Origin: a gamma proteobacterium HTCC2207
Lineage (GTDB): Bacteria; Pseudomonadota; Gammaproteobacteria; Pseudomonadales; Porticoccaceae
Assembly (NCBI GenBank): GCA_905182855.1
Contig: CAJJDA010000004.1
Span: 1 to 64,000 of the forward strand
DNA length: 64,000 nucleotides
Reading direction: 5' to 3'
A model generated the notes under the pieces. It saw only the letters and a program-made list of their open reading frames with translations, did no database searches and had not been told where the DNA came from. Below are positions 24,452 through 43,989 of this stretch, piece after piece (position 1 is the stretch's first letter; every line of letters starts with the position of its first letter). Both the position numbers and the translations under genes were made by a program.

Positions 24452-25708
24452 ATGACCCTTCAAAACTTAACGCGACTGCATCCGATCCGCTGGCTCAGTG
24501 GCGTCAGAATTTCTGCGTTACTATTATTAACTTTGATTAGCTCATTTTCAGGCGCCGACTCATTGACTGAACAGCAGGTCGAGTCTGACTCGATCACCGA
24601 TTATATGGAAGCTATCGACAACAGTGAAGGTCAGTTCGGCGCATACGCAACCGAGCTTTCAGAGCTGTATCTAGGCTTAGGAAATGCTCTCTATGCCGGA
24701 GAGGAATACACCGAGGCTCTTGACGCCTTTCAAAAGGGCATGCAGATTGAACGAGTCAACTATGGCCTCAGCAGCCTGTCACAGTCCCCCTATTTGTTTT
24801 CCATCGCCGATACCGAGCGCTATCTTGGTAACTGGGATAAATCACAGCAGGCACTGGAGCGTGTCTATACCATCAACAGTAAAAACTATGGCGAGGTGGA
24901 TGTGCGCATGCTCGGGGTGCTGGACAAAATCCTAGCGTGGTACATGGATAGTTACAAAGATCGCAGGCCAAAGGGCGGCTACGCTAATCTGGTAATTTCC
25001 GAGCGCATAGCCCAGCGCATGTATGAAATCCTGAACAAGGATATGTCGCTGGATGATCCAGAGGCCCCTGATCGCTTTCGTCGCTTAGGTTACCTGCAAC
25101 ATGTTATTGCGGTTCACCTGAAGGAACACGGCGAGCCATCTGAGTCAGGTCTGAGTATTTCTATGTCTGGTTCCTCAGGTCGACCCAGCAAAGCAACTAC
25201 CTCGCATTTACACTTTCGCAGAGGCAAGTTAGCCTTAGAAAAAGTGATTGCTTCTGTGATCCAGCAGCCCAACAGTACTGAAACTGACCAAGCGCTTGCC
25301 ATTGCTGAACTTGGTGACTGGTATTTAGTGTTTGGTCAAAAAGCTCCAGCCACTGCAGCCTATCAGCTTGCTCTAGATGTACTGGAAACCTCCGAGGATC
25401 CCGAGCAAACCCGCGAGGACCTATTTGGCCTGCCTAGGATGATAGAGTTCAGTATGACTAAAAGCCCGCCAATGGCCGCCGGCGACCAGCCTACAGAATC
25501 ACAACTTGAACTAGCAATGATCATATCCACCTACGGAGTCCCCAACAACATTGAGGTAGTCAATCCGCCCGAGAGTCTCAGCAAAGAGGCATTGCGTGAT
25601 ATACGCAGAGACACCCGCGGAAAGCGCTTTAGACCGAAACTGGTTAATGGATTAGCCGAAGAAGCACCCTACCGCATGCTGTATGATCAACCGATACCAA
25701 AAGGCTAA
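24452..25708 (+). CDS. TPR-repeat exported protein
   Basis: Signal-like N-terminus; YLGLGNALYAGEEYTEALDAFQKGMQIERVNYG..., helical TPR-like repeats; RBS aggag. Confidence 0.75.
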   Translation: MTLQNLTRLHPIRWLSGVRISALLLLTLISSFSGADSLTEQQVESDSITDYMEAIDNSEGQFGAYATELSELYLGLGNALYAGEEYTEALDAFQKGMQIERVNYGLSSLSQSPYLFSIADTERYLGNWDKSQQALERVYTINSKNYGEVDVRMLGVLDKILAWYMDSYKDRRPKGGYANLVISERIAQRMYEILNKDMSLDDPEAPDRFRRLGYLQHVIAVHLKEHGEPSESGLSISMSGSSGRPSKATTSHLHFRRGKLALEKVIASVIQQPNSTETDQALAIAELGDWYLVFGQKAPATAAYQLALDVLETSEDPEQTREDLFGLPRMIEFSMTKSPPMAAGDQPTESQLELAMIISTYGVPNNIEVVNPPESLSKEALRDIRRDTRGKRFRPKLVNGLAEEAPYRMLYDQPIPKG

Positions 25709-25711
25709 ATC

Positions 25712-26503
25712 ATGAATACGAAATTTTCTCTTAGAGCCACAGCCCGGCCATCTGCACGATCGATAATCACAGCCCTAGCCGTGCTTTTTTGTTTGAGTGC
25801 TTGCCAAATGCCCTCACCGGCGAGCTCTTCAGGTCAATCAGGGTCGCCAAGTGGCGGCATGCCCTCACCGCCCAGCGGTGGCGGTGCCCCGAGCAGCGGC
25901 TCTCCGTCAACTAGCCCTTCATCACCGAGCAGTTCTGGAGGGAACGAGCCGGCAGAAGGCGGGGCAGAAGCGTCTGGAGACTCAGTAGGCGAAAGCGGCA
26001 GCCCCCAAGGCGGGGATGACGGTGGTATCGATGGCTCAGAGGGTGAAAGCATCGAAGGGCTAGACGCAGAACTGGACGCCTCTTTAGAAGGCTTCGATGA
26101 CAGCGTCGGAGGCAGTTCCTCACAGGGCCCTAGCGAAATAGATATACTGAGTCCCAGTGGCTCGAGCGGTGTTACCTTGGGCACAGATGAGCCACTCTTT
26201 GAGGAAGCTGACAGCGGCATACCTAATGTAGGTAATGCTGAGGCCGAACAGGCCGCTCAAGACAGCCCTGAGTCGCCCGATAGTGCCGAAGGGGCAGCCG
26301 ACCAATCAGACCCGCAAGGTGGAAAAATGGGTGATGGGCAACAACCGGCCGACGCTGCCGTAATCCCGATCCCCGAGGATATAGATGATGGTCAGGGTGA
26401 CGGTATTGTGCTTCGCCAACTCCGTGATGCCGCGATGCGGGAAACAGACCCTGTTCTCCGTGAAAGACTCTGGGATGAATATCGACGAATCAAAAATCAA
26501 TAG
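25712..26503 (+). CDS. Low-complexity Ser/Gly/Pro/Glu-rich lipoprotein with ordered C-terminus
   Basis: Lipobox FCLSAC; long acidic Ser-Gly region; C-terminus IVLRQLRDAAMRETDPVLRERLWDEYRRIKNQ. Confidence 0.75.
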   Translation: MNTKFSLRATARPSARSIITALAVLFCLSACQMPSPASSSGQSGSPSGGMPSPPSGGGAPSSGSPSTSPSSPSSSGGNEPAEGGAEASGDSVGESGSPQGGDDGGIDGSEGESIEGLDAELDASLEGFDDSVGGSSSQGPSEIDILSPSGSSGVTLGTDEPLFEEADSGIPNVGNAEAEQAAQDSPESPDSAEGAADQSDPQGGKMGDGQQPADAAVIPIPEDIDDGQGDGIVLRQLRDAAMRETDPVLRERLWDEYRRIKNQ

Positions 26504-26522
26504 CACAGGCTCGATAACAACG

Positions 26523-27755
26523 ATGATGAAAAAGACCGAATCAATCAGTGCGCGCAATACACTGTTACTAAACGCGCCCAGTCTAGCCGCAGTGCTGCTT
26601 GGACTGCTGGTCAGTGTTGTGACACCCCAAACTGCCACCGCTGGAATCGATAAGGTGACATCGTCGACAGCCTTACCGCTGAAAACACCCTCCGCGCCAA
26701 TTGCCGATGCCGCCTTATTAGATGTCGGCATTACGCCATTGAATGATGGACTAGATCTCACTGATGAAGATGACACGGTATTTCCAGAGGTCCGTTTTGC
26801 CGAGGCCATTTATTTTTCTAACCAGCTGGCTAAAGTGATGGAAAAAAGCGGCGCCTGGGGTGCGATAAGGGTGACACCCAGCGACGACGTTATTACTGAT
26901 GTTTATATCAGCGGCACGATTCTGCACTCAGATGGCGAGACTATGAAGTTACAAATTACTGTCAAAGATAGCCGAGGGCAGCAGTGGATAAGTAAAAAAT
27001 ACAATCAAACCACCGGAAAGTATGCCTACGACCGTCGCCTGAAGAACCTGGCTGATCCCTTTCGAAATCTGTTTGTGCGCATCGCTAATGATATTCTCAA
27101 ATATCGCGAAAAACTAAGCCAAGAAAAAGCATTGGAGTTGCGCACCATCTCTGAACTGCGCTTTGCCAAACAGTTTTCACCAGAGGCCTTCGACGACTAT
27201 ATAGCCGAAAAACGAGACGGCATCCTAACCATTGAACGACTGCCGGCTGAGAACGACAAAATTTTGCAGCGGGTGCGCAAAATTCGTGACCGCGACTATC
27301 TATACATAGATACCATGCAAGATTACTACGACGGCTTCTCTCAACAAATGCATCTAGCCTATCAAGATTTTAGACGCTCATCCTACGAGTCAGTGGTCAA
27401 GGCGAGGCAGCTTGATCAGCAAGGAAACCGGAGAGTAGTGGCGGGTATTGGTGCAATTTTAGCCGGCATCTATGGTCGCACTGAGTCAAACACTCGTATC
27501 GGCAGAGATGCCAGTACCGCCACTGCAGCCACGGGTGGTTTTATCCTCAAATCCGGGCTCGAGAAAAAACAGCAGGCCGCCACCTACAATGAAGCAGTGG
27601 CTGAAATGGGTTCCTCACTAGAAGCCGAGATCGCACCTCAGGTGATAGAGCTCGAGGATCGCACCGTTACGCTCACAGGCACGGTTCAAGGACAGTATGA
27701 GCAGTGGCAGGCACTATTAGATAAGATCTATAAGCAGGAACGCGGTGCGCTTTAA
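26523..27755 (+). CDS. Exported hypothetical protein
   Basis: Signal-like N-terminus; coding frame intact; start chosen at MMKKTES (26475 also possible). Confidence 0.7.
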   Translation: MMKKTESISARNTLLLNAPSLAAVLLGLLVSVVTPQTATAGIDKVTSSTALPLKTPSAPIADAALLDVGITPLNDGLDLTDEDDTVFPEVRFAEAIYFSNQLAKVMEKSGAWGAIRVTPSDDVITDVYISGTILHSDGETMKLQITVKDSRGQQWISKKYNQTTGKYAYDRRLKNLADPFRNLFVRIANDILKYREKLSQEKALELRTISELRFAKQFSPEAFDDYIAEKRDGILTIERLPAENDKILQRVRKIRDRDYLYIDTMQDYYDGFSQQMHLAYQDFRRSSYESVVKARQLDQQGNRRVVAGIGAILAGIYGRTESNTRIGRDASTATAATGGFILKSGLEKKQQAATYNEAVAEMGSSLEAEIAPQVIELEDRTVTLTGTVQGQYEQWQALLDKIYKQERGAL

Positions 27756-27765
27756 GCCAAGCCCT

Positions 27766-29202
27766 ATGAACAAGCATCCAGTACCACCTCATCCACAGCC
27801 GGCTAATACGCAGAAAATTATCATAGGCATACTGCTACTTGTGGCTGGGTTAGTCATCCTAGTATTACCCAATTTAGTCTCTAAACCCTGGATAGCAGAC
27901 ACAAGTGAGTCGGCCACCATAGGTGCAGCCAAAACCATGGTTACCCCGTCCACAGCGGCAGAAAAAACTCAGTATCGGCAGAGCTCGCAAACGGTACTGG
28001 CAACTATTATTGCGGTACGTGATCGTCTTAATAGTCAGGGTATCGAACTCTGGGCAGACTTCGAATATCGCCAAGCTATGGCCTTAATAGAACTGGGTGA
28101 CGAGCAGTATATTCAGGGCAATTACGGTGCATCTTTAGAGACTTACAAGCAGTCGCTAGGGCAACTCAGCAACCTCGAACAGCTTGGTCAGGCTCGCCTA
28201 GCTCAGGCCCTGACGGATGGTCTAAACGCGATTGAAAATGCCTCACCAGCCGACTTAAGTATTGCCGAGGATGCCGCGCAGTTGGCCGTGGCTATTGCAC
28301 CCAACAGCTCGCAGACGCAAAATCTCGCTCAGCGGACCGCCCTATTGCCGCAGGTAATTGAGCGACTTCAGGCTGGCGACAGGCTCCTGGCCAGCAAACA
28401 GTTCGAGGCCGCCAGACGCGCCTATCAGCAGGCCGCAAACCAAGATGGTCAGCATCTCAAGGCTTCTGCCGCACTGGACTCTATTGAAAAGACGATAATA
28501 GGAGAGCGTTTTCGGGACTATATGAGTGCGGGATTCAAGGCGCTGGATCAGGACAAGTTTGTCGCGGCGAATCAGGCTTTTAATAATGCGGGGAGTCTTT
28601 ACAACAGTGACCCCGCCGTCGCAAAGGCGCTGTCCCAGGTTAGAACAAGACGGTCACAGGTTGCTGTAAGCCTGAAAATGGAAGAGGCCATTGGCTATGA
28701 AAAAAAGGAACTCTGGTCTACGGCTCTAGAGATTTATCAATCTTTGTTGCTCACAGATCCCTCATTAACTGAGGCTAAAATCAGAATCATCTCGGTCAGC
28801 GTGCGAGCAAATCTGGATAATCAAATCAATGGAATCCTTGCCGACCCGTTAAAATTGGCCTCATCTAGGGTCTATCGCGAAGCCCAAAAACTGCTGCAGG
28901 ACGCCATGAGTATTAACATGCAAGGCCCCCTGTTAAGTCGCCAAATTACCGATTTAGATACCGTCTTGCGACAGTCAAGAACAGCCGTCAAGGTGGTTCT
29001 GCAGTCAGATAACCTGACCGATGTCACCCTGTTTCGTGTTAAGCAGCTAGGTACATTTGAGCGCACCTCAGTGACACTAAAGCCTGGCCGCTATGTGGCC
29101 GCAGGCAAGCGCCTTGGCTTCAAAGACGTGAGAATTGAATTCACTATTACTGGCCAACCACTGCCAGCACCGATTCTGGTAAGCTGTACCGACGCGATTT
29201 AG
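27766..29202 (+). CDS. Membrane-anchored TPR protein with C-terminal beta-rich (PEGA-like) domain
   Basis: TM IIIGILLLVAGLVILVLP, TPR-like repeats, C-terminal SVTLKPGRYVAAGKRLGFKDVRIEFTI. Confidence 0.75.
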   Translation: MNKHPVPPHPQPANTQKIIIGILLLVAGLVILVLPNLVSKPWIADTSESATIGAAKTMVTPSTAAEKTQYRQSSQTVLATIIAVRDRLNSQGIELWADFEYRQAMALIELGDEQYIQGNYGASLETYKQSLGQLSNLEQLGQARLAQALTDGLNAIENASPADLSIAEDAAQLAVAIAPNSSQTQNLAQRTALLPQVIERLQAGDRLLASKQFEAARRAYQQAANQDGQHLKASAALDSIEKTIIGERFRDYMSAGFKALDQDKFVAANQAFNNAGSLYNSDPAVAKALSQVRTRRSQVAVSLKMEEAIGYEKKELWSTALEIYQSLLLTDPSLTEAKIRIISVSVRANLDNQINGILADPLKLASSRVYREAQKLLQDAMSINMQGPLLSRQITDLDTVLRQSRTAVKVVLQSDNLTDVTLFRVKQLGTFERTSVTLKPGRYVAAGKRLGFKDVRIEFTITGQPLPAPILVSCTDAI

Positions 29203-29291
29203 CCTTAAGCCTAGGTGAAAATTACTCAGTCACTAACGAAAACAGCCACATTATTGAGATAATTAAATACTAACCTAGATACTATAAACCT

Positions 29292-31361
29292 ATGCCCGAC
29301 GATCAAAAACAGCCTATCTTAGCAGCCGAATTCAAGCCTTTGACGGGCGCTGGCAGCAAACGAAGCCTACCCATTTCTTCCGGCATGCTCAGCCTAATAG
29401 TACTTGCCGGTTTCGGCATTATTATTATGGCGTATCTGTTCGTCGCGCGCGCAGTCGTCTTTCAAACAGTCCCTCCCGAGACTCAGATCTCTGTTAGTGG
29501 TCTATCATTTAACATCGGCGACAACTATCTGCTGCTAAGCGGTGACTATGACATTACTGCAACCGCTGACGGCTATTACCCATTAATTGAATCAATCACC
29601 GTGGGCGATGCCGCTAGCCAAGATGTTGGCGTCCAGTTGCTGCCATTACCGGGCAATCTCGCCGTTATCTCAGATTTGGAAGATATACAGGTCACTATTG
29701 ATGATCAGCCGGTCGGTACCGTTCCAGGGATCATAAAAGCTATTAGTCCGGGCATCCGCAAGATGGTCTTTAGCAAGTATCGCTATTTTCCATTGCAGCA
29801 AGAAATTGCTATCGAAGGTCGTGATAGAACCCAGTCGGTGGATATTAGTTTGCGACCCGCCTGGGGCGCAATGCAGTTAACGTCTGAACCCACCGCTGCC
29901 CAAGTCTATATTGACGACCGCCTTGTGGGTCAAACACCCCTAAGTACTGAAGTCTTAGAAACGGGCAGTCGGTTAAAGCTGGTCCTCGCGGGTTATAAGA
30001 CCTACCAGCAGGAGATTTTAGTCAAGGCGGGCACCAGTGTCACACATCCTCCCATTAAGCTAATCGTTGCCGACGGTCTGCTGCAGTTGAGCAGTACGCC
30101 GTCGGGTGCGAGTATCACAGTCAATAATGAATTTGTTGGCAGCACACCAATGACGCTGGCCATGGCGCCATTTAAGCAACATCGCCTGGCGTTCTTTTTG
30201 GAAGGCTATTTAAAAACCACAACAGCAGCGACATTAAAACCGGAGAAAACCACCGTATTAGCTGTTGATCTAGTGCCCAATATCGGCAGTATCGCCTTAA
30301 CTATTAGCCCCAAAGGGGCCCGTGTTTTGGTCGATAATCGCTACCAGGGAGATGGTGACCGCACCCTGTCCCTAACTGCAAAACCCCATCGGCTCAGTAT
30401 TGAAAAATCTGGCTATCAGACAAAATCGCTCTCCGTGATACCTAGGCCCGGACATGAACAGGCACTGAGTATCAAACTGCTAACATTGCAGGAAGCCTAC
30501 TGGGCTTCTCGGCCCCCAGCGATCCAGTCCTCGGTGGGTTCACCGCTTGCATTATTCCGTCCCCAACAGAGCTTTACTATGGGTGCACCGCGACGACAGC
30601 CCGGCCGTCGTGCGAATGAAGTGGAACGCAGAGTGAGTTTGGATAGACCCTTTTATCTCGGTACACGAGAAATCAGTAATGCCGAATATCGCAGCTGGAA
30701 ATCAAGCCATAGCTCCTCAGCACTGCAGGGCCAAACATTGGACAGAGACCGACAGCCTGTTGCCGGTCTTACTTGGGAAGATGCCGCGCTGTATTGCAAC
30801 TGGTTGAGCCGCCGCGAGGGTCTGCCGCTGTTTTACCGCATGGAGAACGGTGTGGTCAATGGATTCAACTGGGACGCTCACGGTTATCGCCTGCCCACCG
30901 AGGCTGAATGGGCCTGGGCAGCAAGAGTTAACACAGACGGCAGCAGTCAGACCCTGCCCTGGGTCAATGGCCTCTATCCACCAACCGATGTCGTTGATAA
31001 TTATGCCGATCGGAGTGCTTCGAGACTCATTCCATTCACTATCGCTAGCTATAATGACCTGACACCCGCGTCAGCAGTCGTAGGTAGCTTTAAACCTAAT
31101 GGCAAAGGCCTTTACAATATGAGTGGCAATGTCTCTGAGTGGGTGAATGACTTCTATGACGTGCGTCCCAATCGCGGTGAATCCAGCGCCGATCCCACCG
31201 GACCAATAACCGGTGTCGCCCATGTTATCCGCGGTGCGAGCTGGGCGCTGGGGTCACGTACTGAATTGCGCCTGAGTTATCGTGAAGCCGGCACCGACAA
31301 ACGTCTGGATGTTGGCTTCAGAATCGCTCGTTATGTTGACAGTCTAGGAGCTAAGCCATGA
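29292..31361 (+). CDS. PEGA-repeat protein with C-terminal FGE/SUMF1-fold domain
   Basis: TM near N-terminus; repeated PTAAQVYIDDRLVGQTPLS / PSGASITVNNEFVGSTPM / PKGARVLVDNRYQGDG; FGE motifs GYRLPTEAEWAWAAR, NMSGNVSEWVNDF, IRGASW. Confidence 0.92.
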   Translation: MPDDQKQPILAAEFKPLTGAGSKRSLPISSGMLSLIVLAGFGIIIMAYLFVARAVVFQTVPPETQISVSGLSFNIGDNYLLLSGDYDITATADGYYPLIESITVGDAASQDVGVQLLPLPGNLAVISDLEDIQVTIDDQPVGTVPGIIKAISPGIRKMVFSKYRYFPLQQEIAIEGRDRTQSVDISLRPAWGAMQLTSEPTAAQVYIDDRLVGQTPLSTEVLETGSRLKLVLAGYKTYQQEILVKAGTSVTHPPIKLIVADGLLQLSSTPSGASITVNNEFVGSTPMTLAMAPFKQHRLAFFLEGYLKTTTAATLKPEKTTVLAVDLVPNIGSIALTISPKGARVLVDNRYQGDGDRTLSLTAKPHRLSIEKSGYQTKSLSVIPRPGHEQALSIKLLTLQEAYWASRPPAIQSSVGSPLALFRPQQSFTMGAPRRQPGRRANEVERRVSLDRPFYLGTREISNAEYRSWKSSHSSSALQGQTLDRDRQPVAGLTWEDAALYCNWLSRREGLPLFYRMENGVVNGFNWDAHGYRLPTEAEWAWAARVNTDGSSQTLPWVNGLYPPTDVVDNYADRSASRLIPFTIASYNDLTPASAVVGSFKPNGKGLYNMSGNVSEWVNDFYDVRPNRGESSADPTGPITGVAHVIRGASWALGSRTELRLSYREAGTDKRLDVGFRIARYVDSLGAKP

Positions 31362-31600
31362 GAGCCTTATTGTTCGTCCTGTTAGTCATGCCCCTAGGGC
31401 TTTTTGCTCAAGAGCAGATTGAGGATATAGAGCCCACGGAGGCTATAAAGCCTGCAGCTAACATGAAACCTCCAGCCACAATTTCACCCGCCGCACCTAT
31501 AGCGCCAATTTCCGAAGCAGGAGCCGTCAGCGATATTGATTTTAAACCCAGCGAGGAAATCTCCGAGGATTTTTCAATAGCACTGCCCTCAGATATTTAA
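31358..31600 (+). CDS. Small exported Pro/Ala-rich protein
   Basis: 80 aa, signal peptide, ATGA overlap with the preceding gene; C-terminus DIDFKPSEEISEDFSIALPSDI. Confidence 0.7.
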   Translation: MRALLFVLLVMPLGLFAQEQIEDIEPTEAIKPAANMKPPATISPAAPIAPISEAGAVSDIDFKPSEEISEDFSIALPSDI

Positions 31601-31630
31601 AGCGATCAAGCAACAGACAGGAATAAGAGT

Positions 31631-32437
31631 ATGAATACTTCAACCAATCGTGCCAGTAACGAGATGTTTTTCCAGTTAACCGCCCTTTTACTGGCTATCA
31701 TTATTGTCCACATTATTTTTGTTACCGTGGTCCGACCCAACGCTGACAGCACCATTCGCCAGCATGCGGAAATGGTCGCAGCCGGTGAAGAATATCAGGT
31801 GCCACGCTCATTTTTTATTGTCATTAAAGATCTAGAACAGGAAGCCTGCTTTATTCTGATGTTTTGGTCGCTAGCCATTATGGGTTACAAAACCCGCACC
31901 ACGATTCGCGAACAACGCATGCTAAATCAACCACTAATATCGATTGCCGAAGGCTCCAGAATACTGCCTGATGATGCATCACAGCTTACACGCCCACTAC
32001 AATCACTAGCCGATGAAGAACGCAGCTATCTGTTACCTAGAGCCTTGAATACCGCCCTTAGCCGCTTTCAGGTTACCGAAAGTGTGCAGTTTGCCACCGA
32101 AGCAGTGAGCAGTGTCTGCGCCACAGAAAATGATCGCCTCGACTCAGAACTCTCCATGGTGCGTTACATTACTTGGGCTATTCCATCCATTGGCTTTATT
32201 GGCACCGTGCGCGGTATCGGTGCGGCATTGGGCCAAGCTCACGAAGCTATTGCTGGTGATATTGCTGGCGTCACGAGCAGTCTCGGCGTGGCCTTTAACT
32301 CGACGTTTATTGCCCTTTTAATAAGTATGGTCGTGATGTTTTTTATGCATCAATTACAGCTCTCGCAAGAACGGCTAGTACTCGACTCTCAGTCCTATTG
32401 CGAAAATAATTTGCTGCGCTTTTTAAAAGCGAAATAG
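31631..32437 (+). CDS. MotA/TolQ/ExbB-like proton channel family protein
   Basis: TMs and AIPSIGFIGTVRGIGAALGQAHEAIAGDIAGVTSSLGVAFNSTFIALLIS. Confidence 0.88.
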   Translation: MNTSTNRASNEMFFQLTALLLAIIIVHIIFVTVVRPNADSTIRQHAEMVAAGEEYQVPRSFFIVIKDLEQEACFILMFWSLAIMGYKTRTTIREQRMLNQPLISIAEGSRILPDDASQLTRPLQSLADEERSYLLPRALNTALSRFQVTESVQFATEAVSSVCATENDRLDSELSMVRYITWAIPSIGFIGTVRGIGAALGQAHEAIAGDIAGVTSSLGVAFNSTFIALLISMVVMFFMHQLQLSQERLVLDSQSYCENNLLRFLKAK

Positions 32438-32440
32438 ATC

Positions 32441-33709
32441 ATGACTATAGCCATCTTGGAATTAAACGATCAGGCTTTGCTGATTCAAACGGAGGAGGGT
32501 CGGTCACATATTGAGCCCGGTTTTGCTAGTGTTACTCCCTCAGGTATTGAAAGTGGCGACAAAGCCTGGGCCATGGCATGGCAAAACCCGCAAGACTGTT
32601 TCAATCAATACTGGCGACAACTGAACCAGCTGCCTCTGCCAAGAAAAACAAACTGGGCGCGGCACCATGGCGACATAGCCTATGCCCAAATCAAGCATAT
32701 GCTCGAAAGTGTTGGTTCCCCCAGCAATATAATTCTGGCGGTTCCCGGCTGCTTTAATGAAGAGCAGCTAGCGCTGCTGCTAGGTTTGGCTCAGGCTATT
32801 CCGGTGCAAGTGGATGCGGTTATCGACAGCGCTCTGGCGATGAGCTTGTATGCTCAGAAGGAAACCCTCCTGCTTGATATACAGCTGCAACAGTCTGTGG
32901 TGAGTCTCATTAGCGAAATCAACGGCAACCTAGTCGTCAGTGAGCAATCAATCATTCCAGATCTTGGGATCCTATATCTCTATAACGGTGTCGCCCGACA
33001 TATTAGTGATCGCCTTATTGATGACTACCGATATGATCCATTGCATACTTCAGAGGGAGAGCAAACCATCTATGATCAGCTGCCCGCTTGGTTAAAACAG
33101 TTCGGATGGCAGAACGAACTTTCGATCAACCTGCCGTCGCCGCGCGGTGATCTACCTATGATATTGCATAGAAAACAAGTCGCCCTAATTATTGAGCAGC
33201 GTCTGGAGAGTCTTAACAACATTATTGAAAAACATCCCAATACGCAAATCACCTTGGCTCATAGCGCCAGTTTATTGCAAGCGATACTGCCCAGGTTTGC
33301 CGGCGCCTTGGTCATGTCACAGACCAGTGGTGTTGATAACTGCCTAACCGCTCGTCGAGAGATTATCGCTAGTAGCGAAACCTTGCACAAAATAATCAGT
33401 TTAGAAAAAGCGGGTGGGAAATCGAATAATCTCCAACCAAAGCCTCGCTGCGCTAGCCACCTGTTGTATCAGAATCAGGCCTGGTCGCTGGACAAGCCGC
33501 TCAGCATAAACCTGCAAGACGGCGAGCTCATTCTGACTAACAGTATTGATAAGAATGCCGCACTAGTGGTGGTTATTAAAGATCAGTCACTGCAGATAAT
33601 CCATCAGTCAGACACCATTGATACGCAGATACCACGGACCTGTGAGCCGGGACAAAGATTCGTATTAGCCGGACATAAACTGAGTTTTATTGAGGTCAGC
33701 AATGCCTAA
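32441..33709 (+). CDS. Degenerate actin/Hsp70-like protein (tentative)
   Basis: SNIILAVPGCFNEEQLALLLGLAQAIPVQVDAVIDSALAMSLY resembles Hsp70-like segment; lacks clear phosphate motifs. Confidence 0.5.
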   Translation: MTIAILELNDQALLIQTEEGRSHIEPGFASVTPSGIESGDKAWAMAWQNPQDCFNQYWRQLNQLPLPRKTNWARHHGDIAYAQIKHMLESVGSPSNIILAVPGCFNEEQLALLLGLAQAIPVQVDAVIDSALAMSLYAQKETLLLDIQLQQSVVSLISEINGNLVVSEQSIIPDLGILYLYNGVARHISDRLIDDYRYDPLHTSEGEQTIYDQLPAWLKQFGWQNELSINLPSPRGDLPMILHRKQVALIIEQRLESLNNIIEKHPNTQITLAHSASLLQAILPRFAGALVMSQTSGVDNCLTARREIIASSETLHKIISLEKAGGKSNNLQPKPRCASHLLYQNQAWSLDKPLSINLQDGELILTNSIDKNAALVVVIKDQSLQIIHQSDTIDTQIPRTCEPGQRFVLAGHKLSFIEVSNA

Positions 33710-34757
33710 GAAGCGCCGCAATATAGCCTTTAGTTTGTCCTTTTTGGACATCATGGCCTGCGGCTTTGGCGCGGTGACTCTGCTGTTTTTAATTCTGCGC
33801 CACAATGCCACCGAAATTCAAACACCTGATGTGAGACTGTCTGCAGAAGTCAATATGCTGCTTATGGATATCCGTCAGGCCGATGCGGAAAAAACTCTGC
33901 TACTAAACAGTCTTGAACAGATAGATTTAGAATTGGTTAAGGCTCAGGGTCTTTCTGATCGAGTACTCACCGATTTACAGGAAACTGAAAAAAGTATCCA
34001 GTCCGATCCCAATGAGATGGATAAGCTGCGACTTCAGGTCGAAAAACTTGAAGATGAAACCGCCCAAATGGAGGAGGTAGAATTCGGCGATAGGGTGAGG
34101 GAGTTTGTTGGTGATGGTAATCGGCAATATCTTACCGGCCTCAAATTAGGCGGTGAGCGCGTCCTCATTTTGGTTGATGGCTCCGCCAGTATGCTTGCCG
34201 ACACTGTTGTAAATGCAGTGCGTAGACGCAATATGGATGACGAACAAAAAAAGCAGTCACCAAAATGGCAGTGGACATTGCGCACGGTAGAATGGTTGGT
34301 CGCGCAGCTTCCCGCGAGCAGCCGCTTTCAAATCTATATCTTTAATATCAGTGCCGAGCCCGCTCTGATAGATTCAAAGGGAGAATGGCTTGATGCGGCA
34401 GACTCGCTAGTCATGGAAGAGGCCATTGCTGGTCTGAGACAGTATTCGCCTGGGTCGGGGACCAGTTTAACCAATGGCTTTGGCGCCATCGCCGATTTTG
34501 AAGATCGTCCAGATAATGTTTTTTTACTCACTGATGGTCTGCCAACACAGGGTAAAAATCCACCGAAGAAATACATGGTTAGCGGTGGCCAGCGACGCAG
34601 TTACTTTTTGGCGGCAATGAAAGAGTTCCCTCGGGGAGTGCCGCTGAATACTATTTTATTTCCCATGGAGGGAGACCCTGAAGCTGCGGCGTTGTTCTGG
34701 CAGACAGCCCTAGACACCGATGGTGCCTTTATTGCGCCATCTAGAGACTGGCCATGA
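33702..34757 (+). CDS. VWA-domain protein with N-terminal TolR/ExbD/MotB-like TM
   Basis: SLSFLDIMACGFGAVTLLFLIL TM, coiled coil, VWA MIDAS RVLILVDGSASM, PGSGTSLTNG, VFLLTDGLP. Confidence 0.88.
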   Translation: MPKKRRNIAFSLSFLDIMACGFGAVTLLFLILRHNATEIQTPDVRLSAEVNMLLMDIRQADAEKTLLLNSLEQIDLELVKAQGLSDRVLTDLQETEKSIQSDPNEMDKLRLQVEKLEDETAQMEEVEFGDRVREFVGDGNRQYLTGLKLGGERVLILVDGSASMLADTVVNAVRRRNMDDEQKKQSPKWQWTLRTVEWLVAQLPASSRFQIYIFNISAEPALIDSKGEWLDAADSLVMEEAIAGLRQYSPGSGTSLTNGFGAIADFEDRPDNVFLLTDGLPTQGKNPPKKYMVSGGQRRSYFLAAMKEFPRGVPLNTILFPMEGDPEAAALFWQTALDTDGAFIAPSRDWP

Positions 34758-35743
34758 GAAAGCAGCGTAGAGAATTACAGGAGGCGAACGTCTCATTTCT
34801 TGATGTTATTAGCTGCGGCTTTGGCGCTATTGTATTACTGTTGATAATCGCTCGAGTCGGTGATCCCGCAGCATTAGAGGAGGCCGACAATCAATTAATG
34901 GGGTCTGTAAAAGAGTATCAGGAGCGACTATTTGAAATACGTGGTGAATCGGTGGTACTTGACGAGCGTTTAAAGTCGCGCCAAGAGCAACTGTCAGAAC
35001 TGACTGAACGCATTGCGCGACTCAAAGCAAAACTCGCCAGCGTCTCGAAGCAGTCCAGTCAGCTATCTCAGTCACAGTCTCGGGAAAAACAGCAGCTCCA
35101 ACTGGTACTACAGGTGCTGTCAGAAGAAATGGAACGGCTGCTGGGACCCGATTTCCAGCGTCAAAATGACCTGGTTGGCGGTATCCCTGCGGACAGTGAC
35201 TATATTATTTTTGTCATAGATACATCTGGTAGTATGCAGATAGCAGCCTGGGAAAAAGTCAAAAAAGAGATGCTCAATATTTTGGATATTTATCCAGAGG
35301 TCAAGGGGATACAGGTACTCAATGATATGGGCCAGTATATGTTTAGCGGCTATAGTAACAAGTGGATCCCTGACAGCCCCGCCATGCGTAAGAACATTAT
35401 CAAGACATTAGCTAGCTGGTCGCCCTTTAGTAATTCTAGCCCAGTGGAAGGTATTAATACCGCTATTCAAGCCTTTTACAAACCAGGCCGAAAAATCAGT
35501 ATTTATACTCTGGGGGACGATTATCAGGGACGCTCCATACGCAGCGTAGTCAAGGCAGTGGATCGACTTAATAAAGCTAACCGAGGCGCTAAACGGCTAG
35601 TACGCATTCATGCAATCGGGTTTCCAGTGCACTTCCCTCCAGGGGGGACACCCAGCGCATCGGCAATAAAGTTTGCCGCACTGATGCGCGAACTTAGTTA
35701 CAACAATGGAGGAACCTTTATCGGCTTAAATAGCCTCAACTAA
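34754..35743 (+). CDS. Second VWA-domain protein with N-terminal TolR/ExbD/MotB-like TM
   Basis: VSFLDVISCGFGAIVLLLII TM, coiled coil, VWA DYIIFVIDTSGSM; ATGA overlap with upstream gene. Confidence 0.88.
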   Translation: MRKQRRELQEANVSFLDVISCGFGAIVLLLIIARVGDPAALEEADNQLMGSVKEYQERLFEIRGESVVLDERLKSRQEQLSELTERIARLKAKLASVSKQSSQLSQSQSREKQQLQLVLQVLSEEMERLLGPDFQRQNDLVGGIPADSDYIIFVIDTSGSMQIAAWEKVKKEMLNILDIYPEVKGIQVLNDMGQYMFSGYSNKWIPDSPAMRKNIIKTLASWSPFSNSSPVEGINTAIQAFYKPGRKISIYTLGDDYQGRSIRSVVKAVDRLNKANRGAKRLVRIHAIGFPVHFPPGGTPSASAIKFAALMRELSYNNGGTFIGLNSLN

Positions 35744-35772
35744 AGGACTAATAACTTATGCTAACGATAACT

Positions 35773-36408
35773 ATGAAATCATTCGCCGCGCTGTTCGCCT
35801 TATTCATCCTTGGTGGTTGTAGTTCCTCGGCCTCGGTGCAGTTAACCGGCGACTTTCCAAAGGTCCTAGCAAAGCCGAAGCCGCTCAGTGCCGCGGTGGT
35901 GTTTGAACCTAGCTTTGCCACCTATATAGCGCAGCCCAATGCTAAAACAGTCATAGATATGGGTGCAGCTCAGGTGCGGCTGCTGCGCAATGCTTTTGCC
36001 GGTTTATTTGGTCGCCTCGAGTTTGTCGGCAGCAGAGAAGAGATTACCATCGATAATGCTATGGTCATTATTCCCTCTGTGCGTGAAGTACAGGTGTCCA
36101 CGCCATCTGAAAACTACCAGAATGTCTTCGAGGTATGGATTAAATATAACCTAGATCTTGAATCCACAGCGGGCGAATCTATCGACAGTTGGTTTATGCC
36201 CGCCTACGGCAAAACACCGGATGCCTTCATGGCCTCAAAGAGTGATGCTATTGAGCAGGCGGCAATCAGCGCGCTGCGCGATGCAGGCGCAAAACTAACA
36301 TTGGATTTTTATCGTATCCCTTCAGTCAACAACTGGGTGACAGAGGAGCAAGAACGGGCTAGACAGGCTAGTCTTCAGCAGTCAGACAAATCAGAGGTGT
36401 CACCATGA
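35773..36408 (+). CDS. Lipoprotein, unknown function
   Basis: MKSFAALFALFILGGCSSS lipobox; ORF intact. Confidence 0.75.
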   Translation: MKSFAALFALFILGGCSSSASVQLTGDFPKVLAKPKPLSAAVVFEPSFATYIAQPNAKTVIDMGAAQVRLLRNAFAGLFGRLEFVGSREEITIDNAMVIIPSVREVQVSTPSENYQNVFEVWIKYNLDLESTAGESIDSWFMPAYGKTPDAFMASKSDAIEQAAISALRDAGAKLTLDFYRIPSVNNWVTEEQERARQASLQQSDKSEVSP

Positions 36409-37076
36409 GCCCTACTAACAAGTTGATCCCAGTGCTATTTGGCGTCTTCTTAGCCGGCTGCAGCGCCACCACCACCATTGATGAATATAGACCTACTGGT
36501 GAAGCCATAGAGTTAAATGTTGCCGAGCAGGTGGTGATATTAGGGCGCAGAGATGCTGGGCACTATGAAACTGACCGTGAGTTTGTTGACTGCGTCGCCA
36601 GCAAAATGCGTGGCGCAGATATTGGCATACTGCCCGAGCAAGAGTTCATCGATGCTATCTATCCCTGGTTTGAACCGCGCACCGCACCCAAGGGTCTTTC
36701 GCGCCTTAAACGCTTAATGCAGGACACCAGTATCAAAGCCGAGGTGAGTAAACGGGCGGTACGCTATCTGGTCTGGTTAGATGGTTCGACCGAAACGCTT
36801 GATTCCAGCGGTTCTATGAGCTGTGCAGTCGGCCCAGGTGGCGGTGGCTGTTTTGGTTTTGCGAAGTGGGACAAGCTATCGGTTTACGAGGCCATTGTCT
36901 GGGACCTACAAGACCTCACTGAAAAAGGGCGGGTGCGCGTCGATTCTGAGGGCACGTCATATCTGATTGGTGCGGTGGCCCCTATTCCCTTTTTATCCCC
37001 GGTAAAAGACGATGCCTGCTCTAGCCTAGGCAACCAGCTCAAGAGTTTTTTCTCTATTACACCGACAACCCAATAA
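36405..37076 (+). CDS. Lipoprotein, unknown function
   Basis: Lipobox FLAGCSAT; 4-nt overlap with upstream gene. Confidence 0.75.
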   Translation: MSPTNKLIPVLFGVFLAGCSATTTIDEYRPTGEAIELNVAEQVVILGRRDAGHYETDREFVDCVASKMRGADIGILPEQEFIDAIYPWFEPRTAPKGLSRLKRLMQDTSIKAEVSKRAVRYLVWLDGSTETLDSSGSMSCAVGPGGGGCFGFAKWDKLSVYEAIVWDLQDLTEKGRVRVDSEGTSYLIGAVAPIPFLSPVKDDACSSLGNQLKSFFSITPTTQ

Positions 37077-37089
37077 TTAGGCCAATACC

Positions 37090-38594
37090 ATGACTTGTAT
37101 TCCTCGCCAGATAATTGCCGCCCTCCTCATCAGCTGTTTTTGGGGTGGTGGACTGGTACTTTCCGCAAATACCTGGAGCGCAGTTTCTGGTGCCGATATC
37201 TACAAGGAGGTACTTGAAGGTACCGCCATTTATGATGACCCAGTGCTGGATGCCTACATTAAGGAACTCGGGGCGGAGATTATTGCAGTGTCCGAAATGG
37301 CCGGCGAAAAATTTACCTTCACATTACTCGACTCACCTGACTTGAATGCCTTTGCCACCCGAGATAACTACATCTATGTCAATCGTGGTCTGCTTAATTA
37401 TGTTAGCAATGAAGCCCAGCTGGTTTCAGTTCTGGCGCACGAGGTAGGTCACATTACCCGAGACCATGTTACCGGCCAGGAGGGTAAAGCCACCGGTGCC
37501 CAGATGCTCTCAGCTATTGCCGCAGTATTATCGGGCAGCAACGAGGTTTATGAGGCCAGTATGGCCTATGCCAACTCAATCATTCGTGGCCACGGTCGGC
37601 GCAACGAACTGGAAGCAGACGAAGCGGGCGCTGAATATATGGCCAAGCTAGGTTACGCGCCTACCGAAATGCTCAGCATGCTGTCCATTATGAAAGACTA
37701 TGAAACCCTGCAAAAGGATCGGGCCAAAGCCAAGGGAGCATCCAAGCAGACCTATCACGGCATTTTTTCCAGTCACCCACGCAACGACAGTCGTCTGCGC
37801 ACGGTAGTCAGCTAAGGCTAACGCCGTAAAGTCCAAGAGAACAAGAGACAATGGGGCCAGTCGCTACCGCGCACTAACCGACGGCTTAGTCTGGGGCGAA
37901 AATTTTCTGGCTAAGGAACAAAAGCCGGAGCGATTCTCGAATATGCGTCTTAGGGTGCGCTTTGACTTCCCTAAAGACTGGGTCAGCAATGCCAACCCCA
38001 GTCCGTTTATGGCCAGTGGTATGCCCGCAGATAAAACCGCTGTATTAACTATGCAGCCCAATTGCTCGTACGAGTCAAAGCCCAGAGGAATACCTTTACA
38101 ATCATCTAAAGGTATCCCAGCTAACCGACGGTAAAGCTATAGCACCAGCTCGACTTAAGGGTTTCAGCGGTATTTTACCTGGCGGCGAGAACCGCTCCGA
38201 TAGCCGTATCGCCGTAATCTATTACAAGCTTAACGCATACCTATTTAGCGGCGAAATCATAGAACAAAACGCCACTGCCGAAACAGACCTCGTTTCGGAT
38301 AAAGACGTCGCAGCCGGCAAAGAGCCTTCAGAAAAACCAAAAACCTTTGCCGAAAGAGACCAGCAGTTCGTTGCCGCTATTAACACCTTTCGACCTATTT
38401 CAAGCCGCGAAATTGCTGGCCAAAAGCCAAAGACAGTACGTTATGTCAAAGCGACCCGCGCGACTACCTTTGCCAAGCTAGGCCCAGCACTTAAGCTCAA
38501 TGCGGTAGACGTGCAAGATCTGCGTATAATTAACGGCCACTATCCCAGCGGTGAGCCCAAGGCTGGGGACTGGATTAAAATATTTAAACAGTAA
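37090..38594 (+). CDS. Exported M48 family metallopeptidase with C-terminal extension, two frameshifts (about 37813, 38057)
   Basis: VLAHEVGHITRDH; ELEADEAGAEYMAKLGY; continuation in other frames DGLVWGENF...MRLRVRFDFPKDW...QSPEEYLYNHLKVSQLTDGK...INGHYPSGEPKAGDWIKIFKQ. Confidence 0.85.
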
Positions 38595-38607
38595 TGAGCT
38601 ATCCACT

Positions 38608-39345
38608 ATGAGTCCTTCGCCGCAACGTCCTGTCCGATTTCTGATTCTCACGGGTACCCTGCTGTTAGCTCTCTTGGGGTCGGGACTTTATGGCCTGTTC
38701 GTGGAGAGGGATGCACCCAGTGATAGGGACTGGGATGCTAACCGTAAAAACCTTCCAGATATCAGCGTTCTGGAACAGCGGATCGAAGCCGATCTATTTG
38801 GGGTGGAAGCGCCATCGTCAGAGGGTATGGGAGCGGATATTTATCAGGTAGTTGACAGTGAGGCCATGGCCGCCAAATTGTCAGGATTAACCAAGCATGT
38901 CACTACTCTCAGGGTACCGACTGAGGCTGAACTAGAGGCCTATTATAATAAGCATGGACCCAGGTACCGTGACACGTCACGTTTTAGCTTTCAGCACGTT
39001 GTCTACACAACTGCCAGACATGGCGGTCAGGCCGATTTAGTGGCTAAGAAGGCGCTGGCCTTGGAGGTAAAAGCGGGTGATCAAACCGCACTAGCCCCGC
39101 GCTATTTTTCAGTGAATTCCAGTAAAGTTGACCGCTTATTTGGCAATGGTTTTGCCGACAAGCTGTTTGAAATGGTAAAAGGTGGAAACCTACCCTGTTG
39201 GGCTGGCCCCATAACTTCCCGTCATGGGGCCCATCTAGTCTGTATCGACAATGCGATTTTGGGCACAGTTCCTGATTTAGCGCAGGTTCGATCTGAGGTC
39301 ATCAATGATTGGCGCTTCTCTGTTGTAGCGGACGCTAAGCCTTAG
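38608..39345 (+). CDS. Membrane-anchored PpiC-type peptidylprolyl isomerase-like protein
   Basis: N-terminal TM; VPTEAELEAYYNKHGPRYRDTSRFSFQHVVYTT; parvulin-like CWAGPITSRHGAHLVCI. Confidence 0.75.
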   Translation: MSPSPQRPVRFLILTGTLLLALLGSGLYGLFVERDAPSDRDWDANRKNLPDISVLEQRIEADLFGVEAPSSEGMGADIYQVVDSEAMAAKLSGLTKHVTTLRVPTEAELEAYYNKHGPRYRDTSRFSFQHVVYTTARHGGQADLVAKKALALEVKAGDQTALAPRYFSVNSSKVDRLFGNGFADKLFEMVKGGNLPCWAGPITSRHGAHLVCIDNAILGTVPDLAQVRSEVINDWRFSVVADAKP

Positions 39346-40110
39346 GCCATCAATGCAGCAAAGAATTTTTTCAGACCTGGAGCGCCTGACTCTTGCCAGG
39401 TTTTAAGCGCCGCAGTGCCAACGATTGCGAGGTCGGCAGAACCCCGTAAAAAGTCCATATCCTCCTTGCCACTGATACCAAAGCCGACACCGATCGGCAT
39501 ATTGGTATGCTGCCGACAGCGCTCAATCAGCGCCAAGACGTCGTCACCCATTTTGGTTTTCGACCCGGTCACGCCCTTTCGCGCGACCACATAAACCATA
39601 CCACGACTCAGGGCTCCCAGTTGCGCCAGACGTTTATCACTGCTCGTTGGAGTCATGAGAATAATCGGCTCAATACCCGCTTTCTCAGACAACTGATGCA
39701 GGTTAGCTGATTCCTCCACCGGCAAATCAGGCAAAATGTAACCGACACCGCCTGCGTCCTTGAGACGCTGCACAAAGCGCTCTTCGCCCATTTTAAAAGC
39801 GGTATTGTAGTAACCCATCATCAACACTTTAAACGGAAACCGGGCACTGACCTCGCGCATAAACTCAAAACACTGGTCTACCGTGGTGCCTGATTTTAAC
39901 GACTGTTCGTTGGCATGGGCAAACAGGGGACCATCGGCACTAGGTTCAGAGAAAGGGAAACTGTAATTCCACCAGATCAACGCCAGCTGCAGCCATTATC
40001 TCTAACGCTTGCATATTAGCCTCAAAGGAGGGGTAGCCACAGACCACATGGGCCATTACCAACAGATCTTTGTCTTTTTTGCGCTCGGCAATAAAATGCT
40101 GTAGACCCAT
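39342..40110 (-). CDS. trpA: Tryptophan synthase alpha chain, frameshifted near 39958-39960
   Basis: N-terminus MGLQHFIAERKKDKDLLVMAHVVCGYPSFEANMQALEIMAAAGVDLVELQFPF and FSEPSADGP...YVVARKGVTGSK...IGVGFGIS in two frames. Confidence 0.95.
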
Positions 40111-41367
40111 TAGCCTCTCTCCGCACGGTATTGATCCGACTTACCTTCAACAAAAGACTTCCATTTGGCATCATCCAGGGCATCAGCAATGGTAAAGATA
40201 TCTTTATCCCCTCGTCCAGACTGATTAATCAAAATAATTTCATCTTTAGCCATAGTCGGAGCCTCTTTAAGCGCCGTTACAAAGGCGTGGGTACTTTCTA
40301 GCGCAGGGATTAACCCTTCGGTACGCATAGTCAACTTTAACGTCTCCTTGACCTCCTCATCGGTTGCCGCTTCAAAACGTACCTTGCCCTGTTCCCAGAG
40401 GTGGCTAAAGATGGGATTAATACCAATATAATCGAGGCCAGCGGCAACCGAATGTGTCTCATTCATATTGCCGTCATCGTTTTGCAAGAAATACGTTTTA
40501 TAGCCCTGAGCCACACCCACTGAGGCGTCGTCATAGGCCAGGCGAGCACCATGCATGTAGGTACCGACACCCAGACCGCCAGCCTCGACACCAATCAGCT
40601 CGACATCATCATCGAAAAAACCCTGAAAAATCCCCATAGCATTAGAGCCACCACCGACGCAGGCATAGACACGATCAGGTAATCTTCCGGTCTGCGTCAA
40701 CATCTGTTCCCGCGCTTCAAGGCCGATAATCGATTGGAACCAGCTAACCATTTCAGGGAAAGGGTGCGGGCCACAGGCGGTACCCAAAATATAATGGGTA
40801 TCTTCCATATTGGTCACCCAGTCACGCATACATTCATTAATAGCGTCTTTGAGCGTCTTCTGGCCATCCTGCACGGCGATAACCTCTGCCCCGAGGTTTT
40901 CCATCCAGAAAACATTGGGGCGTTGCCGCGCGACATCGACGGCACCCATATAGATTTTACAGTCAAAACCAAAGCGCGCGGCCATTGTTGCCGTGGCAAA
41001 CCCGTGCTGTCCGGCACCCGTCTCAGCTATCACCTTGCGCTTACCTAGGCGTCTCGCACAGCAGGCCCTGTCCCATGACATTATTAATCTTGTGGGAACC
41101 TGTGTGATTCAGATCGTCGCGTTTTACATAAATCTGCGCGCCACCCAGTTGCCTAGACAGATTTTCCAGATGCGTCACCGGAGTCGGGCGACCTGAATAG
41201 TTTTGCAGTAGCCTGACATAGTCCTGCCAAAATTTAGGGTCTGCTTTGCATTCACGAAAGCACAGCAGCAGCTCCTCGATCGTTGCATGCAGAATCTCAG
41301 GTAGAAAAACGCCACCGTATTCTCCGTAGTAGCCTTCGCGGCCGTCGGAGAAGTCAAAAATATCCAT
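40110..41367 (-). CDS. trpB: Tryptophan synthase beta chain, frameshifted near 41058
   Basis: YGEYGGVFLPEILH, VKRDDLNHTGSHKINNVMGQGLL and [19 protein letters not shown] in two frames; CVGGGSNAMGIF. Confidence 0.96.
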
Positions 41368-41653
41368 GAAAATCCTCAATAAATCGTGGCAGTTTCCCCA
41401 AAGGAAACCCGTTTGTGAAATAAATAACGTTAAAGGTCTATTTTAGCCAACTCCTTGCATTGGCACAATGTTACCGCTGCGGCGTTCCCTCTAATTAAGG
41501 CAATTTCGGGTGTATACGGCCATAATCTGTAATCGGCTTGTCGCACTAAGAGAGTTATTTGATCAACCCCAGAAGTCACGCTGGACTAGGCCGGGTTATC
41601 CACATGTTTGCCACCGAGTTACCAACGCTTAACGTAGGCAGAATGACAAATAA

Positions 41654-41700
41654 ACACCACATATAGTGCATAAAGACTTGCAAGACACACCATGTAGGAT
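41654..41700. promoter_or_regulatory. Two NrdR-box-like sites, 31 bp apart
   Basis: ACACCACATATAGTGC (41654-41669) and ACACACCATGTAGGAT (41685-41700) versus consensus acacwatatatwgtgt. Confidence 0.45.
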
Positions 41701-41834
41701 AAACTCTTCGCCGTAGTCAAGAATAAAAAAGCATCAAACAAGGGTACATTTAATTATAGGGACGTCTTAAATATACATAAATTTGGCCTCAGAACCGCTA
41801 GGTACCTGAGTTGAAAAAGAAAGAAGGTCAGTCA

Positions 41835-43989
41835 ATGAGCAGTGCACCCAAACTAAAAACCGTTAATGCCGTGAAGAAAAAACCACAAATTCAAATGCAA
41901 CATGCGTCCCTCGATATCTGGGATAAGAAGTATCGTCTCAAGGATAAAGATCAGCGTCCTGTGGATGCCGATATTGATGCAACCTATCAACGGGTCGCCA
42001 AGGCATTATCCGATGTAGAAGATGAAGACAAGCGCGAAGAATGGTCTGAGCGTTTTGTATGGGCACTCAAGCAGGGCGCTATTCCAGCTGGGCGTATTAT
42101 TTCCAATGCTGGAGCTCAAGCCTACAAGCCCGCTACCTCTACAATCAATTGCACCGTTTCAGGCATTGTGCCTGATTCCATGCAAGGGATTCTTGAGCGC
42201 AACCTGGAAGCGGGCCTGACGCTGAAAGCAGGCTGCGGTATTGGCTATGAATTCTCCACATTGCGTCCCAAGGGAGCCTATGTTTCTGGGGCTGGCGCCT
42301 ATACCTCTGGCCCGCTATCTTTTATGGATATCTATGACAAGATGTGTTTTACCGTCTCGTCCGCTGGCGGCCGTCGTGGTGCCCAGATGGCAACCTTTGA
42401 TGTCAGCCACCCAGATGTTTTTGATTTTGTTCGCGCCAAACGTGAAGACGGACGTCTGCGTCAGTTCAACCTTTCACTCCTGATTACGGAAGAGTTCATT
42501 GAAGCGGTTCGCAACGATGGCACCTGGGATCTGACCTTCCCTATCAGTGCCAAGGAAATCGAAGGTGGATTGGACCTCAAGGGTGACAACGTAGTTTGGA
42601 AGCCATTTCCAACCAAAGAGAACTACATTAGCAATGATGAGGGCCTTGTCGCCTGTCGCATCTACGAGACAATCCGTGCACAGAAACTGTGGAATGCCAT
42701 CATGTCGTCCACTTACGACTATGCGGAGCCAGGTTTTATTCTGATCGACCAAGTAAACAAAAATAACAACAACTGGTTCTGCGAAGATATTCGTGCAACC
42801 AACCCCTGTGGTGAGCAGCCGCTACCTCCCTATGGTAGCTGTTTGTTGGGCTCAGTAAACCTGACTAAGTTTGTCCGCAACCCGTTCACCCCAGACGCCT
42901 TCTTTGACTGGGAAGAGTACGCCGAGGTGGTTGCCGTATTCACTCGTATGCTCGACAACGTGGTAGCAATAAACGGTCTGCCACTTGAAGGCCAGCGCAA
43001 AGAAATAGAATACAAACGCCGTCATGGCATGGGGTTTCTAGGGCTAGGATCAGCCATTACTATGCTGTGTATGAAGTATGGTGATGAACAATTCACTAGA
43101 GTTCACGGATCGTATCGCCCGTGACATGGCTGTAGCTGGCCTGAAAGCTGGTCTGGAACTAGCGCGCGAGAAGGGCCCTGCGCCCATTATGAATGATGAA
43201 TTCACCGTCACGGCGGCCATGCTGTTTAAGCAGCCGGACATGGTGAGAGATGGCATTAAGGTGGGTGATAAGTTAAAGGGAAAGGTCCTGATAGCGAAGT
43301 ATAGCCGCTATATGCAGACCGTAGCTCAGGCAGCACCTGAACTCGTTGAGGCATTGATCGAGGAAGGTTGTCGCTTTAGCCACCATTCATCGATAGCGCC
43401 GACAGGTACTATCTCGCTATCACTAGCAAACAACGTCAGTAATGGTATTGAGCCCAGTTTTGCTCATCACTATTCGCGCAATGTCATCCGTGAGGGCAAG
43501 AAGTCAAAAGAAAAGGTAGATGTTTTCTCTTATGAGTTACTGGCCTATCGTACATTGATTAACGAAAAAGCCATGCCCTATGGCACGACAGAAGAAGATA
43601 CGCTACCCGATTACTTTATGAGTTCTGAAAATATTATGCCGCGAGCTCATGTGGATATTCAGGCGGCTGCTCAAAAGTGGGTTGATTCTTCAATCTCAAA
43701 GACAATTAATGTACCTACAGATAGTGACTACGAAGAGTTTAAGGATATTTATCTGTATGCTGCTGAGAAGGGCCTTAAAGGTTGCACGACTTTCCGCTTT
43801 AATCCAGAGGCGTTCCAAGGCGTATTGGTTACTGAGCAAGACTTGGAGAAGACTACCTACAGCTTTACGCTAGAAGATGGCTCCACCGTTGAATTTAAAG
43901 GTAATGAAGAAGTTGAGTACGATGGCGAAACCCATACTGCTGCCAACCTTTTTGATGCATTAAAGGAAGGTTACTACGGTAAATTCTGA
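41835..43989 (+). CDS. nrdJa: Adenosylcobalamin-dependent (class II) ribonucleotide reductase catalytic part, frameshifted near 43092
   Basis: RIISNAGAQAYKPATSTINCTVSG, GCGIGYEFSTLRP, ATNPCGEQPLPPYGSCLLGSVNL; second frame SLEFTDRIARDMAVAGLKAG, APTGTISL. Confidence 0.93.

Follow-up and report, generated by a model that had tools for sequence, protein, structure and literature searches.

Gene content of the cluster

The window analyzed here is a 64,000-nucleotide (nt) stretch of a marine bacterium of the SAR92 clade/Porticoccaceae, whose assembly is partial (76% complete at 1.64 Mb); the closest records with a name are genomes of SAR92 and Porticoccaceae, and its relatives include HTCC2207 and MOLA455. 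At 24452-38594 it carries 13 open reading frames (ORFs), g1 to g13, all on the + strand, which an initial annotation had interpreted as an ion-driven envelope complex of many parts. As a prediction from sequence this is well supported by invariant threonines in the channel-like protein g7, an invariant aspartate in each of two VWA proteins (g9 and g10) and conserved co-occurrence of the genes.

The presence of the 13 ORFs and their tight packing were borne out when junction spacings were recomputed from the chosen starts, with an ATG at 26523 as the start of g3. From g1 to g13 the spacings are 3, 19, -11, 89, -4, 30, 3, -8, -4, 14, -4 and 13 nt, so that the widest gap, 89 nt, lies between g4 and g5 as had been reported; exact 4-nt overlaps, said to predominate together with short gaps, occur at only three junctions. 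The assignments of TPR, PEGA-FGE, MotA/TolQ-like and M48 proteins agree with Pfam matches above cut-off to TPR, four PEGA repeats plus FGE, MotA_ExbB and M48. Promoter and terminator scans gave a signal no greater than in shuffled sequence.

The putative motor core: g7, g9 and g10

The channel-like subunit g7 (31631-32437) matched MotA_ExbB (PF01618) in Pfam at 1.7e-13, scoring 50.9 bits against a cut-off of 22.9. Its residues T192 and T225, which we equate with the channel threonines of ExbB/TolQ by motif rather than structure, are invariant in 36/36 sequences from two classes. The two VWA proteins, VWA1 (g9, 33702-34757) and VWA2 (g10, 34754-35743), share a layout of one N-terminal transmembrane helix, a coiled coil and a VWA domain, membrane topology being assigned by hydropathy here and throughout. 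Within the helix of g9, numbered from the frame beginning at 33705, D15 is invariant in 105/105 sequences; the corresponding D17 of g10 is present in 112/112. The metal (MIDAS) site, DxSxS...T/S...D, is intact in both proteins: D158, S160 and S162 of g9 were found in 110/110 sequences and D277 in 111/111, and D156, S158, S160 and D255 of g10 in all 112.

The aspartate-bearing helices read SFLDIMACGFGAVTLLFLIL in g9 and SFLDVISCGFGAIVLLLII in g10, and that of ExbD from the window's own genome reads TPMLDVVFIMLIFFIVTA. The VWA context, SFLDV followed by a hydrophobic run, resembles the ExbD helices (TPMLDV...) of this genome and its relatives, and from this likeness and their conservation we predict that D15 and D17 carry protons. 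No ExbD/TolR (PF02472), MotB or OmpA domain was found among the Pfam matches of g1-g13; in relatives, ExbD-type genes and TolB are encoded elsewhere in the genome, outside the cluster. Because both VWA proteins bear an invariant aspartate helix and the cluster has no ExbD/TolR, MotB or OmpA domain, the economical reading that fits is that the VWA pair would serve as the axle of the motor.

A motor of this type has been proposed independently. Williams-Jones et al. (2025; PMC12204202) describe membrane-tethered vWA proteins encoded as heterologous pairs beside tolQ-like genes without tolR/exbD; the pairs carry a trans-pore aspartate, and AlphaFold 3 models place them inside a TolQ-like pentamer as its axle. 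This trans-pore-helix (TPH)-vWA/TolQ-like motor (their Fig. 4c,d) was drawn from an Idiomarina genome as query. In every feature g7, g9 and g10 agree with the description: a TolQ-like gene near two heterologous vWA genes, the conserved trans-pore-helix aspartate, the conserved threonine ring and no tolR/exbD. From the description rather than the sequence, we infer the Idiomarina cluster to be this operon. The text of the article assigns no PEGA-FGE, TPR, g3, lipoprotein, Hsp70-fold or M48 genes to the family. Since the core had thus been proposed, the initial description of the whole as an undescribed machine does not hold for it, and is limited to the larger operon, which appears to be undescribed. 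What seems to be new comprises the conserved backbone, an FGE domain that has lost its cysteines, a protein with a degenerate Hsp70 fold and the TonB_C-like tail of g1, and possibly also a TolB-N-like domain on g3. In the open-licence literature, no further papers on the operon were found under its annotation names, nor any phenotype for it; a paper on MotAB evolution (PMC12505986) and a review of 5:2 motors (PMC9389320) do not mention VWA.

A seven-gene backbone is conserved in two classes

Co-occurrence of the genes in other genomes had been set beforehand as the test on which the claim of a functional cluster could fail, and the genes proved to be conserved together. Using the g10 alignment to scan the GTDB genome collection, we identified at least 557 related places and kept 80 loci. 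Gene order and strand are held in 80/80 of these as far as the contigs reach, under the labels Porticoccaceae, Porticoccus, Microbulbifer, Exilibacterium, Pseudomaricurvus, Thalassotalea, Thalassomonas, Pseudoalteromonas, Halieaceae and Lysobacterales. Two genomes from other families of the order keep the same arrangement, with g1-g11 in one (L033) and g1-g13 in the other (L034), whose short g6 was missed by BLAST and is visible as an ORF.

Independently of this best-80 list, a backbone was derived from loci sampled class-wide and in a second class of the phylum. The genes g2-g3-g4-g5-g7-g9-g10 are kept in both classes wherever the contig is long enough, and in the second class they are the entire cluster. 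Intermediate loci add g6 and/or g8, and g1, g11, g12 and g13 are variably present or located elsewhere; g1, g6, g8 and g11-g13 are optional in the operon. Two loci (L166 and L177) have g7 relocated behind g10, an alternative arrangement of this gene set, and no g3 was seen in L166 or L180. The gene g8 is missing in the second class and in L028/L054, which both belong to one SAR92 genome (BACL16); there g7 stands directly beside g9 with no g8, which shows g8 to be dispensable.

Evenly drawn gammaproteobacterial genomes carry g10 in 30/369 cases (23/271 genera), genomes of the order in 44/196 (22/97 genera) and those of the second class, which we guess to be Zetaproteobacteria, in 13/78. A mobile element was rejected as an explanation, since neither the 72,556 plasmid records nor the 50,697 phage records searched contain a g10 homologue. 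Within the genus, genomes of 1.2-1.4 Mb are mostly without the operon and most of at least 2 Mb have it; loss through genome streamlining is possible.

Putative scaffold and partner proteins

The backbone protein g5 (29292-31361) has a single transmembrane segment, four PEGA repeats (4.6e-40) and an FGE-sulfatase domain (1.1e-36; both Pfam). Its active-site segment contains no cysteine in 21/21 homologues, and an active FGE enzyme was rejected for the missing cysteine pair. Solved relatives found by sequence include FGE enzymes and PorK, the PorK chain at 7.5e-13 with true FGE enzymes scoring higher; the best NCBIfam match is GldK (4.4e-27), at 95 bits against a cut-off of 350. From the absent cysteines and these relatives, the FGE-fold domain is therefore probably a structural or binding module.

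The exported backbone protein g3 (26523-27755) yielded an AlphaFold2 model with a predicted local distance difference test (pLDDT) score of 86.8, in which an alpha/beta domain is followed by helices of 76 and 83 residues. These two ~80-residue helices form a hairpin with a Gly-rich tip, where a weak SlyB-like match (0.24) was found. When the alpha/beta part was compared by Foldseek, the best five matches to the TolB N-domain had probabilities of 0.92-1.0 and E values of 0.009-0.04, suggesting that g3 possibly carries a TolB-N-like domain. The g3 proteins of L033 and L034 are lipoproteins, but that of the window has no lipobox. In g4 (27745-29202), a periplasmic TPR-like protein, the single transmembrane helix at residues 25-43 stands as annotated; its TPR matches are weak and fall below the Pfam cut-off. 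The remaining backbone protein, the Ser/Gly-rich lipoprotein g2 (25712-26503; lipobox LSAC), is present in both classes, as are g3 and g4, and ends in a QIREAA..DP...LWDEYR-like motif whose residues are conserved in ~90 sequences. The optional g6 (31358-31600), a small exported protein, likewise has a conserved terminal motif, E..S.D....P.DI, in which E66, S69, D71, P77, D79 and I80 are each kept by 90 or more of the 93 sequences. Judged by their conservation, these short C-terminal motifs could be docking peptides.

The other accessory proteins are more varied. The exported protein g1 (24452-25708) was correctly called a TPR protein (TPR_12, 8.5e-13 in Pfam) and in addition ends in a TonB_C-like domain, matched by 9/16 homologues with a best value of 1.5e-6; it is missing from backbone-only loci. 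For g8 (32441-33709), a cytoplasmic protein with a beta-rich C-terminal part, Pfam gave no match, and the actin/Hsp70-like call was upheld by a profile search, which matched Hsp70 ATPase domains at 2e-6, and by its predicted fold (pLDDT 90.2), which Foldseek matched to Hsp70s (E 8e-17). By eye we could recognize neither a phosphate-loop nor an adenosine motif, and nucleotide binding is for that reason doubtful. The lipoproteins g11 (35758-36408; lipobox LGGC) and g12 (36405-37076; lipobox LAGC) had, like g3, no convincing family in Pfam, and g11 had no convincing PDB sequence match either; the alignment of g12 contains a conserved YPWFEPRTAP-like motif. The last gene, g13 (37090-38594), encodes an exported M48 metallopeptidase (5.9e-32 in Pfam) with a C-terminal domain and the HExxH motif in 83/83 sequences; its best NCBIfam model is BepA (2.7e-27), far below the BepA cut-off.

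Comparison with known envelope systems

As the initial annotation had supposed, the features tested set the cluster apart from Tol-Pal, Mot, Ton, Zorya and Gld. With Tol-Pal (TolQRAB-Pal-CpoB) it shares a TolQ-like ring, a TPR protein, a TonB_C-like tail, lipoproteins and possibly a TolB-N-like domain, but by Pfam it has no TolR, TolB beta-propeller or Pal/OmpA domain, and its relatives encode separate TolR and TolB elsewhere. Like GldKLMN/PorKLMN of the type IX secretion system (T9SS) and gliding, it would set a proton-motive-force motor beside an FGE-fold protein; here, however, the axle would be VWA rather than GldM, and the system has PEGA repeats, a transmembrane anchor and a MotA_ExbB-type ring. 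No NCBIfam match to GldL, GldM or GldN was found among the ten cluster proteins scanned. MotAB and ZorAB also have a MotA_ExbB ring and an Asp-bearing helix, whereas here two different VWA proteins would form the axle and the Asp-helix protein has no OmpA peptidoglycan-binding domain. The resemblance of g13 to BepA extends to the M48 domain, signal peptide and HExxH, but not to a score near the BepA cut-off, and g13 is optional in the operon.

Proposed mechanism and alternatives

Gene conservation, motifs, domain content and hydropathy-based membrane topology are direct observations, and on balance we think it probable that the operon's product is a trans-envelope motor, proton-driven and of 5:2 type, whose axle is a VWA heterodimer acting on an envelope scaffold. 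In the inner membrane, five g7 subunits would encircle two transmembrane helices, one from g9 and the other from g10. Protons would move between the membrane aspartate of each VWA helix and the threonine ring formed by g7, while in the periplasm the heterodimer would rotate or be pulled. Its VWA heads may hold the scaffold, consisting of g4, g5, the TolB-like hairpin protein g3 and the lipoprotein g2, through their metal sites and thereby transmit force to a structure that belongs to the outer membrane or is linked to peptidoglycan. A role as cytoplasmic adaptor is suggested for g8, and g1, g11, g12 and g13 would be add-on envelope parts of some lineages. The energy-coupling part of this model is well supported, resting on invariant residues and an independent published model, and we infer the 5:2 stoichiometry, rotation, protein contacts and outer-membrane target. 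Features pointing to the outer-membrane side are the lipoproteins g2, g11 and g12, the g1 TonB_C-like tail and, weakly, the TolB-N-like domain of g3; force directed at the outer membrane or peptidoglycan is our best guess for the cellular job. We also entertain, more tentatively and at somewhat less than even confidence, that the backbone is a class of trans-envelope nanomachine distinct from Mot, Tol, Ton, Gld, Agl and Zorya, where the VWA heterodimer would be both proton-driven axle and metal-dependent gripping head and would drive an unnamed outer-membrane process.

Three observations weigh against the proposed motor. The Pfam scores of the window's g9 and g10 fall below the VWA threshold, yet the metal-binding DxSxS is invariant in 110-112 homologues and we retain both VWA calls. 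The likeness of g3 to TolB is weak, with an E value of 0.009 at best and an overall template-modeling score (TM-score) of about 0.2. Finally, several genomes of the genus, mainly small ones, lack the operon, so its function is dispensable.

Several other readings draw on the same parts. We regard as rather unlikely a role in outer-membrane assembly or quality control, in which the motor would move or recycle outer-membrane proteins or lipoproteins with a BepA-like M48 protease as clearance arm. The proximity of g13 to BepA among NCBIfam models, sub-cut-off as it is, the three lipoproteins of the cluster and the weak likeness of g3 to TolB-N and LptE folds are consistent with such a role, but g11, g12 and g13 are missing from backbone-only loci, and the protease and those lipoproteins are therefore not the central function. 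Somewhat more doubtful still is a machine for secretion or surface movement that resembles the T9SS/gliding core of Bacteroidota, in which a GldLM-like motor would drive a GldK/PorK-like FGE-fold scaffold handling secreted or surface proteins. The parts list is similar (a motor, a cysteine-less FGE domain and lipoproteins), and g5 has its sub-cut-off GldK match and its PorK relatives; against this, true FGE enzymes outscore PorK, g5 is membrane-anchored with PEGA repeats and is no lipoprotein, the VWA axle is dissimilar to GldM, and the cluster showed no outer-membrane translocon, no GldN and no C-terminal sorting signal.

That the system is a sensor and not a motor, with the VWA pair binding an outside ligand, gating the g7 ring and signaling to g8, appears improbable. 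Intact-MIDAS VWA domains bind ligands, and an Hsp70 fold without recognizable phosphate and adenosine motifs would suit a regulatory adaptor, but g8 is absent in the second class and one SAR92 genome and the energy-coupling aspartates and threonines are kept throughout. We disfavor Zorya-type anti-phage defense as highly improbable: a weak ZorA match of g7 (9.6e-4) stands alone, with no match to ZorB, ZorC, ZorD or ZorE among the ten cluster proteins scanned by PADLOC, and the operon, unlike mobile defense loci, keeps its order across many families and has no g10 homologues among the plasmid and phage records.

If the proposed motor is real, it would be an ion-driven machine with two different proteins as its axle, in which a VWA domain is able to replace the ExbD/OmpA module. 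Its g10 marker occurs in about 1/12 of the sampled gammaproteobacterial genera and in part of the second class, and some of the carrier genera, Microbulbifer and Pseudoalteromonas among them, have species in culture. A defined parts list of seven backbone and six optional genes opens force-driven outer-membrane processes beyond Tol, Ton and T9SS to deletion tests in culturable marine bacteria.

Downstream region and further g10 copies

The initial extent of g13, to 38594, holds only when the gene is read across two frameshifts of this assembly, near 37812 and 38058; the uninterrupted ORF stops at 37815, and in relatives the protein is about 430-525 amino acids long. The genes just downstream, trpA, trpB and a ribonucleotide reductase gene, have one frameshift each and are intact in relatives. 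Because of this we disfavor a decaying pseudogene, and the g13 frameshifts are very likely sequence or assembly errors. The frameshifted stretch spans 37812-43090, and the preceding genes are clean against the same relatives. A PpiC-type protein at 38551-39345 had been suggested as a fourteenth gene; in the loci of the genome-collection scan it adjoins the operon only within the SAR92 genus and among the closest kin of that genus, and it is not a member. The flanking CoA-transferase and trp genes are likewise common only to the genus and nearest kin.

Two genomes of the order (G859 and G907) carry g10 twice; the additional copy is divergent (E about 1e-68) and perhaps marks a second backbone-type operon. 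In metagenome-assembled genomes labeled Lysobacterales or Xanthomonadales (loci L057, L058, L063 and L065), g10 is 67-76% identical to that of the window, a near-Porticoccaceae level that could reflect misbinning, mislabeling or transfer.

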